This document shows positions 57,093 to 61,445 of a stretch of DNA of 64,000 bases, piece by piece (positions within the stretch are counted from its first letter, which is position 1; the number at the start of each line of letters is the position of its first letter). The position numbers were made by a program, and so were the translations under genes. The stretch is from Metallosphaera sedula DSM 5348 (GTDB lineage Archaea; Thermoproteota; Thermoprotei_A; Sulfolobales; Sulfolobaceae), in NCBI RefSeq assembly GCF_000016605.1, contig NC_009440.1, positions 248,001 to 312,000 on the forward strand, written 5' to 3'. The notes beneath the pieces were generated by a model, which worked only from the letters and a program-made list of their open reading frames with translations, searched no databases and was not told the origin of the DNA.

Positions 57093-57995
57093 TCAGGCCT
57101 TGAAGTTCTTGCCTACTATCTTTAACATGCCCATCATTACTCCTAGCCCCCTCTGGATATCAGGATCCTTCATCATAGCTATTAGCTTTCCAAGTGTGAC
57201 GTTCTCCGGGTTAGCCAGGACCTTCCTTGCCTCTTCGCTCGACCAAACCTCAATCAGGGAGCTCAGGGGTGGGGACGTTGCCTTATTTAGGAACTCTAAT
57301 CCCTTGGGTAAGAACTCAAATATCAGCGAAAGGGTAGTTCCTAGATTTGTGATGGCATCATCGTTGAGCGCATCCCTCAATGACTTCAGGGCATAGGACA
57401 TGTTTATTAACACGTCTAAGGTGCCGCTGTTCTTTAGATCCATGACCCTATTCAAAACCTCATTCAGTGCTGGAGCCTTGTCTATTATCTGCTTTAGTCC
57501 ATCTGAAGTCTTGGGATTCATGGAGCTAAGGACTTCCATGAGATTACTGAGGGTAGAGCCTAGGTTCATGATGGCATCATCGTTAAGAGCTTCCCTCAAC
57601 GACTTCAGGGCATAGGACATGTTGACAATAACGTCAAGGGTTCCGCTATCCCTCAATGCCTTCAACCTCATTAGGGCATCTTTCAATGCGTCTGCATTTT
57701 CAAGAATTTGGGCAATGTCGTTTTGTTTATTCTTCATCTCACCCGCAATTATCATGAGATTGGAAAGCATGTCGGCTATGCTCTGTATGGCATCATCGTT
57801 GAGCGCATCCCTTAGTGACTTGGCCCCGTAACTGAAGTTAATTAGAACGTCAAGGGCACCGCTATCCTTTAGTTGACCTATCTTTGTGAGGACCTCATTT
57901 AACGTAGAGACGTGATCGAGGAAGTTAGCTAGTTCCTCCATCTTCTTTTCGTCTAGTTTCGTAAGTACCTTATCCAGGTTTACCTCTGTAGCCAT
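57093..57995 (-). CDS. DUF1641 protein with three tandem repeats
   Basis: A 300-residue helical protein with three copies of a 48-50 residue unit at about 32-80, 103-152 and 177-224. Each has LKxSGTLDVLINMSYALKSL or close, then (R/E)DALNDDAI and a Leu-rich helix. DUF1641 proteins usually have one such unit and occur near formate dehydrogenases or sulfide-quinone reductases. No cysteines or membrane segments. Fourth gene of the TusA-SQR-DsrE operon, four bases after the DsrE stop. It may scaffold the flavoprotein; function is not known to me. Confidence 0.85.
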   Translation of the reverse strand: MATEVNLDKVLTKLDEKKMEELANFLDHVSTLNEVLTKIGQLKDSGALDVLINFSYGAKSLRDALNDDAIQSIADMLSNLMIIAGEMKNKQNDIAQILENADALKDALMRLKALRDSGTLDVIVNMSYALKSLREALNDDAIMNLGSTLSNLMEVLSSMNPKTSDGLKQIIDKAPALNEVLNRVMDLKNSGTLDVLINMSYALKSLRDALNDDAITNLGTTLSLIFEFLPKGLEFLNKATSPPLSSLIEVWSSEEARKVLANPENVTLGKLIAMMKDPDIQRGLGVMMGMLKIVGKNFKA

Positions 57996-57999
57996 GGTA

Positions 58000-58377
58000 T
58001 CACCATATGCTTATGATCTGTCCTCCCTCAACTTCCATGGAGAAGGAGGTAATCCCAACTATGTCATCGACCAGGTCCCCATAGTCATCCTTGTCTAGGC
58101 CATGGATCTTGCTTGCGTAGGAGCAGGCCAATATCTTCAGTTTTCCCGATTTCTTAGCTTTCCTGAAGTGTTGGAAAACATCCTCATTACTTTCCCTTAT
58201 GGTCTTGGAGGTTCCTGATTCGACCCTTAGATCCGGATTCTTCAGGAAGGCCTTAACTCCGTCCATTGTGGCAAAAAGAACCACTTCGTTGTCTAGGGTG
58301 GCTGAGATTAGGGCGTGCATACCCGCATAGGCTACTCGGTCCAGCTCATTGGAGCCCAAAATAATTCCAACTTTCAT
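58000..58377 (-). CDS. DsrE-family sulfur-relay protein
   Basis: A 125-residue DsrE/DsrF-like fold protein: MKVGIILGSNELDRVAYAG at the start, a central ATMDGVKAFL and a single cysteine in LKILACSYASKIHG (near residue 85), which is the position of the persulfide-carrying Cys in DsrE-like proteins. It would carry sulfane sulfur between TusA and a thiol or flavoprotein. It lies six bases after the flavoprotein stop. Confidence 0.87.
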   Translation of the reverse strand: MKVGIILGSNELDRVAYAGMHALISATLDNEVVLFATMDGVKAFLKNPDLRVESGTSKTIRESNEDVFQHFRKAKKSGKLKILACSYASKIHGLDKDDYGDLVDDIVGITSFSMEVEGGQIISIW

Positions 58378-58383
58378 GGCCTG

Positions 58384-59538
58384 TCACACTATGGCCTTGG
58401 CGGTCACTGTCCAGTACAACTTGTTGTACATTAGTTTGCCCCACCAATGTACGTAGGAAGGTGGTGGAGGTACTGGAGGTGCTGCGTAGTTAAATCTGAT
58501 ATAGGTCCCAGAGTCAAGTCCCGTGGCAATGTAGCAGAACACTGACCCATCATATGTCTTCTTGAGTCCGTTACCCCTTATCTCGTTCGTAACGTTGTTT
58601 GCAATTACGTAGGATTCAAAGTCCGCAGTTGACCCGGCCTTGGAAATTGGAATGTCCGTGGTATCACCTATTACGAATACGTTGGAGTGATCCTTCATTC
58701 TCAAGGTGAACTTGTCGGTTGGAATCCAGTTCCTCTTGTCCCCAATGCCGGACTTCCCTATAACATCAGCACCTGTGTGCGGTGGCACCCCTATGGCGAG
58801 GTCGAACTTGATTTTCTCCCCCTCTTGAGATTCCATCACCTTATCCTTCGCATTAACGTTGGTTACATTGAATGGAGAGATTATCTTTATTCCTCTTTCT
58901 TGAAATATCTTTATCATAACGTCGTTTGTGGTCTTGATACCGAATATCCCAGGTACAGGATAGGTGTAGATAATCTCTGTCTTGTCCCTGATTCCCCTCC
59001 TCTTTAGGTAATCGTCCAGCATCAAGGCAATCTCCATGGGCGCTACGGGGCACTTATGGGGTAACTTGGCAACGTTAATCACCACTGTTCCTCCACTAAA
59101 TTGATCCAATGCTTCCCTCAGTTTTAACGCACTCTCGTATTCCCAAGGGGAGTAGACGGCGTCCCTATAGCCCGGTACTTCATCCCATCTTAGATGTGAA
59201 CCAGTAGCTATAACCAGATAGTCGTAGGAGTGGGAAACCCCGTCAGCTGTTGTAACGGAGTGGTTAGCCGGGTCTATCTTAGAAACTTCTCCCTTTTGAC
59301 CGTGAAGAAACTTAACTCTATGATCTAACAGCTCCCTCTCCGGTCTGATTAGCTCCATGGGATCTTGAACGTTAAAGGGAACTAGAGCTTGGCCTGGTTG
59401 ATAGGTATGTTTCTCGTTCTTGTCCAGGACCACTATCTCTGCGTCTCCCCTCTCCAGCTCCTCTGGCATCATTCTAGCCATTCTGTTGGCTACGATTGTT
59501 CCAGCTATACCTCCACCTACGACTATAACTCTCTTCAT
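58384..59538 (-). CDS. Sulfide:quinone oxidoreductase-like flavoprotein
   Basis: A 384-residue FAD protein: [14 protein letters not shown] at the N-terminus, [16 protein letters not shown] and [16 protein letters not shown]. Two cysteines, C163 ([11 protein letters not shown]) and C335 (VFCYIATG), sit where SQR has its redox-active pair; a third catalytic Cys is not seen. The tail ([15 protein letters not shown]) is amphipathic, for membrane binding. It most likely oxidises sulfide or a persulfide and reduces quinone; type II NADH dehydrogenase is less likely because of the cysteines. Its start overlaps the tusA stop by four bases. Confidence 0.87.
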
Positions 59539-59774
59539 TTTGTGATCACCAGTGTGAACTTACCACCCTCATTTTTCTCGGAAACGACCTTGTAACCCTT
59601 CTTAGTTACAAATGCTACCACGTCCTTCTTGGTAGCTTCATCCCCTAAGATAGCCTCTACTGCCTCCCCTGGACTTATCTCCTCTAGGACTCCAGAGAGT
59701 TCTCCTAGAGGTCCTGCGCAAGATTGACCCGTTAGATCCAACTTTTTATATATCTTTAAGGACATTTTTATCAT
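59535..59774 (-). CDS. tusA: TusA-like sulfur carrier
   Basis: A roughly 80-residue TusA/SirA-like protein. [20 protein letters not shown] holds the sulfur-carrying Cys (C19 from this start); CAGP replaces the usual CPxP. First gene of the operon. Possible ATGs at 59783, 59774 and 59765; the TATA box at 59793-59802 puts transcription start at about 59773, so 59774 is chosen. In Sulfolobales TusA passes thiosulfonate-type sulfur to DsrE3 and the Hdr-like complex. Confidence 0.9.
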
Positions 59775-59792
59775 TACATACATCTTACCCAA

Positions 59793-59802
59793 GGTTATAA
59801 AC
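59793..59802 (-). promoter_or_regulatory. TATA box of the tusA-SQR-dsrE-DUF1641 operon
   Basis: Minus-strand GTTTATAACC, 25 bases before the chosen start of tusA. A second promoter for the divergent ATPase gene must lie in the same 95-base gap. Confidence 0.6.
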
Positions 59803-60641: not shown

Positions 60642-61445
60642 CTACCTTTCCACTGGAACTCCAACCATGTTTCCCCATTCCGACCATGAACCGTCGTAAA
60701 GTCTCACACGGGGAATGTTCAGAAGGTATTTCAGGTAAAACCATACGAGGGAGGCCCTCGCCCCAGTTCTACAGTATACCACAGTGTCGTCCCTAGACAC
60801 GGATATCTCAAGCTTATCCGGCGGAAGAAGTTCTTCCGTGATGGGATCAAAGAACTTGTTCCATGGCACATTCACAGCCCCGGGGATGTGACCCGTTACT
60901 TGAGATTCCTCGTTGGGGTGTTCAGGCGGGGTACTTGCCTCTCCCACATATTCTTCACGGTATCTAACGTCGAGAAGCTGAAATTTCTCCCCCCTATTGA
61001 TCTTGGGAAGTAACTCCCACACCATGATCCTTTGACTCCAGTCAGGTTCCAAGGCTTCATATTTGCAGGCTGGTCGACTCCTCACCTCTGTCTCTCTTGG
61101 AAACTCCTTGATCTCCCACGCGACCTTTCCGCCATCCAGAACGCTCATCTCCCTGTGGCCGAAAGCCCTCAATATCCAGAACGCGTAAAATGCATACCTA
61201 TTGTTGAAGTCACTGTACAAGACCAAGGGATCTTCGTGGGAAATTCCAAGTTCGCCTAATCTCTTCTCAAGAATTTCCCTAGTGGCGAAATCCCTTTTCA
61301 CGGGATGCCTTAGGTATCTCCAGGGGAGCCTGATGGCGTTGGGAATGTGCCATTCAACGTAGGAATCGTCATAGAAAGTGACCTCAACCACCTTATAATC
61401 GTGAAGGTCCTCTAGTAATTTTGGTGCGGAAATCAAGTATTTCAT
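60642..61445 (-). CDS. Sulfurtransferase with two rhodanese domains
   Basis: A 267-residue tandem rhodanese. The inactive N-terminal domain (1-120) has VEWHIPNAIRLPW and SVLDGGKVAWE. The C-terminal domain has LLDVRYREEY, GHIPGAVNVPW and the active loop YCRTGARAS (Cys near residue 229). CRxGxR loops favour thiosulfate or 3-mercaptopyruvate as sulfur donor. Fits with the nearby TusA-DsrE sulfur carriers though on a separate transcript. TATA-like TATTTTATTACC about 30 bases upstream. Confidence 0.92.
   Translation of the reverse strand: MKYLISAPKLLEDLHDYKVVEVTFYDDSYVEWHIPNAIRLPWRYLRHPVKRDFATREILEKRLGELGISHEDPLVLYSDFNNRYAFYAFWILRAFGHREMSVLDGGKVAWEIKEFPRETEVRSRPACKYEALEPDWSQRIMVWELLPKINRGEKFQLLDVRYREEYVGEASTPPEHPNEESQVTGHIPGAVNVPWNKFFDPITEELLPPDKLEISVSRDDTVVYCRTGARASLVWFYLKYLLNIPRVRLYDGSWSEWGNMVGVPVER

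Follow-up and report, generated by a model that had tools for sequence, protein, structure and literature searches.

DUF1641 repeat protein of a tusA–sqr–dsrE operon in Metallosphaera sedula: a probable quinone-coupling subunit of SQR

Gene order and features of the locus

The window, a stretch of 64,000 nucleotides of the genome of M. sedula, a thermoacidophilic archaeon, carries on its minus strand four open reading frames in the order tusA–sqr–dsrE–DUF1641 (Table 1). The tusA and sqr genes overlap by 4 nt, whereas the sqr–dsrE and dsrE–DUF1641 gaps measure 6 and 4 nt, respectively, which confirms the four-gene operon with gaps or overlaps of 4–6 bases proposed in an earlier note on this DNA. 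The centre of the TATA-like element lies 24 nt ahead of the tusA ATG at 59774, a spacing as in leaderless archaeal transcripts and, as judged from the sequence, consistent with a single promoter for the operon; the intergenic gaps are too short for a second promoter, while an intragenic one is possible. A sigma-70 promoter scan found no match, as expected in an archaeon, and neither did an Rfam search. One gene from tusA, beyond a divergent HerA-like ATPase gene, the minus strand encodes a two-domain, 3-mercaptopyruvate sulfurtransferase-like rhodanese (window 60642–61445). The same 2.2-Mb genome yields 10 TusA-like and 8 DsrE-like matches, a rich set of sulfur carriers.

Table 1. Genes, promoter element, and DUF1641 segments of the operon (window coordinates).
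Feature	Position	Strand	Basis
tusA-like sulfur carrier, CAGP motif	59535..59774	-	Pfam TusA 1.2e-16, 60.8 bits
Type III SQR-like flavoprotein (provisional)	58384..59538	-	NCBIfam SQR_III 366.7 bits; Pfam Pyr_redox_2/FCSD_central
DsrE-like sulfurtransferase (DsrE4 group by position)	58000..58377	-	Pfam DsrE 1.3e-8, 35.4 bits
DUF1641 protein, 300 aa	57093..57995	-	Pfam DUF1641 (PF07849) 6.4e-14, 52 bits
TATA-like element TTTATAA upstream of tusA	59795..59801	-	direct sequence reading
Repeat unit 1 (aa 35–87)	57735..57893	-	unit HMM 59.7 bits
Repeat unit 2 (aa 106–159)	57519..57680	-	unit HMM 64.2 bits
Repeat unit 3 (aa 179–231)	57303..57461	-	unit HMM 63.9 bits
C-terminal DUF1641 motif DPD(I/V)..G (aa 259–296)	57108..57221	-	Pfam PF07849

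A tusA–sqr–dsrE4 cluster has been published for Metallosphaera cuprina (Mcup_1722–1724; PMC4175335), in the paper that defines the DsrE4 group. Its three genes and their order are those of the window, and the genus is shared; however, the passages on this cluster mention no downstream DUF1641 gene and report no functional assay.

Cys19 of TusA (codon 59718–59720) sits in CAGP and not in CPxP, just as the earlier note had read directly from the sequence, and the protein passes the Pfam TusA threshold; TusA partners outside Sulfolobaceae mostly have CPGP. The sole cysteine of DsrE, Cys85 (58123–58125), is invariant (75/75 homologues). The flavoprotein has exactly two cysteines, Cys163 (59050–59052) and Cys335 (58534–58536), which align with the cysteines of KCAGAP and SCPLVTG of human SQR and are nearly invariant among 21 homologues, in agreement with the two SQR-type cysteines claimed earlier. 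Its closest PDB relative is human SQR (5.6e-42), the NDH-2 matches in the PDB search being much weaker (about 1e-7). Its NCBIfam score lies under the SQR_III cut-off of 525, which belongs to a model built for a selenoprotein subtype, that is, for an exception, and the type III assignment of the operon SQR is for this reason provisional.

The DUF1641 protein is free of cysteine by sequence count, which rules it out as a persulfide carrier of sulfane sulfur. A low-confidence model predicts it to be all-helical. Its AlphaFold model, built from 15 sequences, is poor (pLDDT 42) and was left unused, and the good model obtained for a relative with a single unit (pLDDT 85) gave no Foldseek match against PDB. 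The chain contains three tandem units with a period of 72–73 aa, whose conserved core spans about 53 aa; the unit HMM has 54 positions. Self-comparison yields shifts of 72, 73, and 145 residues, with the top score of 193 versus a maximum of 55 in 200 shuffles. The units are 44–62% identical to each other, with 21–27 of 36 residues shared in the best part. Thus, from the earlier description of three near-identical 50-residue repeats, the three tandem units stand, whereas the 50 residues are the core of a longer period. The Pfam DUF1641 region is a separate 39-residue motif, present only once (its score compares with a cut-off of 21 bits), and the repeats are not copies of it. A profile of the repeat unit only matched no solved structure in PDB (best 0.03), while matches of the repeat protein to ADH_zinc_N_2, AbbA, MurU, and similar Pfam and NCBIfam models were taken as chance helical matches.

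Genomic partners of DUF1641

The complete host genome (2,191,517 bp) contains four DUF1641 genes. The window gene shares its operon with sqr, with dsrE in between; L003 overlaps the gene of a type V SQR; and L004 lies after a gene for a ForC-type formate dehydrogenase, the best PDB relative of which is ForC1 of B. subtilis, and before fdhD. A standalone DUF1641 repeat protein of 417 aa (L002:376–1629, at ~1.512 Mb) is encoded between PIN-like and histone-deacetylase-fold genes; most Sulfolobaceae have conserved this type, and no oxidoreductase is an obvious partner for it.

Across Sulfolobales, 67 of 83 DUF1641 loci are directly downstream of SQR III (22), SQR III–DsrE (15), SQR V (16), or ForC (14); some Sulfolobaceae DUF1641 proteins stand alone; and operons with two flavoproteins or SQRs have a DUF1641 gene for each (L096, L098, L099). 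The Sulfolobales DUF1641 tree sorts by partner, with 6 label changes versus 41.3 in shuffles (as given by a short alignment and a quick method), so that a separate DUF1641 lineage goes with each type of partner. Elsewhere in the phylum, SQR precedes DUF1641 in 18 of 21 loci and dsrC in two, while one DUF1641 gene stands alone. In two Thermoproteota loci (L146, L148), DUF1641 comes directly after DsrC, in a cluster with a protein of ~700–800 aa (with an NPCBM_assoc domain in L148) and two unassigned genes. In Ignicoccus, DUF1641 and an adjacent FAD oxidoreductase rise together in the proteome (PMC3149612).

A search from the SQR sequence alone, free of the bias that a DUF1641 query would bring, covered many phyla of bacteria and archaea: DUF1641 is the immediate downstream neighbour in 55 of 79 SQR loci. 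Of these 55, 36 also have TusA or DsrE, and 19 have neither. An iterated HMM underlies part of the bacterial DUF1641 assignments, and ORFs in GC-rich contigs were called mechanically; among 20 cases from bacteria and haloarchaea, most exceed the cut-off of the Pfam DUF1641 model. DUF1641 is not recognised in the other 24 of the 79 loci. A more distant SQR-like clade lacks DUF1641; immediately after the SQR-like gene there is instead a DsrC/TusE-like gene of ~103 aa with a conserved C-terminal Cys, and a gene of ~170 aa often comes next (L205, L214, L215, L216, L221, L222, L226, L227, L232, L233, L235, L238). In Myxococcales, one ORF after SQR joins DUF1641 and DsrC domains by Pfam (L208:5741–6745), and may, as far as its sequence tells, be a natural fusion of the quinone-coupling subunit with a sulfur carrier.

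The 24 loci of the Cytobacillus order have as neighbours ForC (16), SQR (3), NDH-2-like flavoproteins (3, among them a verified YjlD with a match at 5.5e-198), hypA from a hydrogenase operon (1), and a persulfide-dioxygenase-like protein (1), that is, ForC, SQR, or NDH-2 adjoin DUF1641 in 22 of them. One DUF1641 gene (L278:1462–1860) lies 64 nt upstream of the gene for a metallo-beta-lactamase plus rhodanese protein (3–1397), persulfide dioxygenase-like, of the CstB type. The operon of a Huc-type hydrogenase in Parageobacillus also contains a DUF1641 gene (PMC12976888).

Solved relatives of DUF1641

A profile of 24 DUF1641 proteins, built from one-unit homologues, retrieves from the PDB as its top hits, in this order, ForE1 (4.5e-11), HucM (2.4e-4), and YjlC (0.012, also 0.026); the HucM and YjlC matches are weak, and amphipathic designed helices come up at 0.11 in the same search. 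The window protein alone reaches just 0.025 with ForE1, while the YjlC homologue L276 matches YjlC at 4e-48 and ForE1 at 0.0054. A plasmid search with a ForE-like protein gave no match.

ForE1, HucM, and YjlC are accessory subunits of soluble quinone-reducing enzymes. ForE1 from ForCE of Bacillus subtilis (PDB 8rqz/8rr0/9gzq), whose match spans one unit plus the motif, is likewise a DUF1641 protein beside such an enzyme; its partner is, however, a Mo-formate dehydrogenase, and it has one unit versus three in the window protein. Formate:menadione activity and the retention of menaquinone depend on ForE, as does full catalysis with an artificial acceptor (PMC8808070). HucM of the Huc hydrogenase (PDB 7uus) shares the C-terminal DPDV..G motif, in which its match ends and which is also present in ForE1. 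It forms an alpha-helical stalk on the membrane, hydrophobic inside, through which menaquinone travels 94 Å between membrane and enzyme, and it is needed for the Huc oligomer; in contrast to the window protein, it is a tetramer of single chains, with a [NiFe] hydrogenase as a partner (PMC10017518). YjlC (PDB 9pxk–9pxm, 9snk), deposited as an "NDH-2 membrane coupling protein", is of the DUF1641 type and has as its partner a flavoprotein of the SQR superfamily, but it is encoded upstream of that partner; no paper on YjlC was found in the open-access literature.

Proposed quinone coupling and unit number

By analogy with these relatives, DUF1641 is probably a quinone/membrane-coupling subunit of SQR, tandemly expanded here, and the operon a sulfide (or persulfide) oxidising unit; we infer the binding to SQR, the delivery of quinone, and the role of the repeats. 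SQR would oxidise sulfide at Cys163/Cys335 and FAD, the sulfane sulfur would probably pass to Cys85 of DsrE and then to Cys19 of TusA, and the electrons would go to a quinone whose delivery or docking DUF1641 would assist. The amphipathic helical units of DUF1641 might lead the quinone tail out of the membrane and up to the flavoenzyme, or else hold the enzyme at the membrane; the model here is the role of HucM in Huc hydrogenase, with ForE and YjlC placed likewise for formate dehydrogenase and NDH-2. As to sulfur, the earlier note had it released by the flavoprotein and loaded on DsrE and TusA. This view is upheld as a reading of the sequences: given both SQR cysteines, the invariant DsrE cysteine, and the TusA/DsrE genes that flank related SQR genes in numerous bacteria and archaea, a relay from SQR to DsrE to TusA is plausible. 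Genes for sqr-alt, sirA, and dsrE are among the sulfur-responsive ones of related species (PMC11323534).

The earlier note inferred that DUF1641 acts as a scaffold. Such a scaffold would unite SQR, DsrE, and TusA for channelling of sulfane sulfur, and the tightness of the operon, the TusA/DsrE genes adjoining SQR in 46 of the 79 scanned loci (36 with DUF1641), and the Myxococcales fusion to DsrC agree with it. We consider this role quite improbable, because 19 SQR–DUF1641 loci have no TusA/DsrE, because formate dehydrogenase, type V SQR, and NDH-2 have DUF1641 next to them where sulfur carriers are absent, and because the protein has no cysteine and its solved relatives belong to quinone enzymes. 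As DUF1641 accompanies enzymes without sulfur chemistry, quinone is the common denominator, and as the solved family members couple soluble enzymes to the quinone pool, DUF1641 probably feeds quinone to SQR rather than serving as a scaffold. A structural contribution to SQR assembly, like that of HucM to Huc, is possible by analogy; that DUF1641 is just a structural or oligomerising subunit, there to stabilise the flavoenzyme and with no quinone role, is unlikely. The need of the Huc oligomer for HucM and of full activity with an artificial acceptor for ForE (PMC10017518, PMC8808070) fit such a subunit, as do helical repeats, which are typical assembly elements, but the partners have little in common except quinone reduction, and ForC1 without ForE loses both menaquinone and menadione activity (PMC8808070). 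Finally, the flavoprotein might be an NADH:quinone or other oxidoreductase, and the operon not serve sulfide, as its score under the SQR_III cut-off could suggest; with both SQR cysteines present and conserved, SQRs as the nearest solved relatives and NDH-2 far behind, and TusA/DsrE as neighbours, this is very hard to credit.

Against a quinone-coupling role weigh the standalone DUF1641 proteins, the SQR loci with no recognised DUF1641, and a possible membrane anchor in SQR itself. The operon SQR retains a W/Y-rich C-terminus resembling membrane-binding tails, and the Acidianus SQR (type V) is described as membrane-anchored (PMC8551704), so that an extra quinone subunit may be unnecessary; the Sulfolobaceae relatives of the Acidianus enzyme are linked to DUF1641. 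The idea that DUF1641 is needed only by SQRs without a C-terminal anchor was dropped, since short and long SQRs both occur with and without it.

It seems unreported in the open-access literature that the fourth gene groups with ForE, HucM, and YjlC, that the SQR link extends over both bacteria and archaea, and that the unit has multiplied in tandem; the SQR–DUF1641 linkage may have been mentioned outside that literature. How soluble or loosely bound dehydrogenases reach membrane-buried quinone is a question that HucM and ForE only began to answer. Quinone coupling by DUF1641 would extend their family to sulfide oxidation in archaea and bacteria, predicts a function for a widespread protein of "unknown function", and, if true, means that many annotated SQR operons hold an unnamed partner subunit of SQR.

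A survey of repeat number in homologues, proposed in the earlier note, gives one unit (unit HMM) with formate dehydrogenase (ForC) and one to four with SQR: with SQR III, one in most Sulfolobales outside Sulfolobaceae and two to four in Sulfolobaceae; with SQR V, two to four. A tentative extension, which may well not hold, is that the tandem ~53-aa units make in a single chain the conduit for which members with one unit, HucM among them, have to oligomerise, DUF1641 being a general quinone-conduit module for formate dehydrogenase, hydrogenase, NDH-2, and SQR, multiplied separately in the SQR lineages of Sulfolobales and of betaproteobacteria/Acidithiobacillus; with its one to four units, the series offers a way to test the conduit idea. 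In the window protein, helix three of every unit shows significant amphipathicity (p 0.008, 0.004, and 0.001), which a hydrophobic-lined conduit would need, but amphipathic helices are common. Near-identical tandem units are also present in betaproteobacterial and Acidithiobacillus SQR operons (L194, L202, L225), and the amplification is therefore recurrent.
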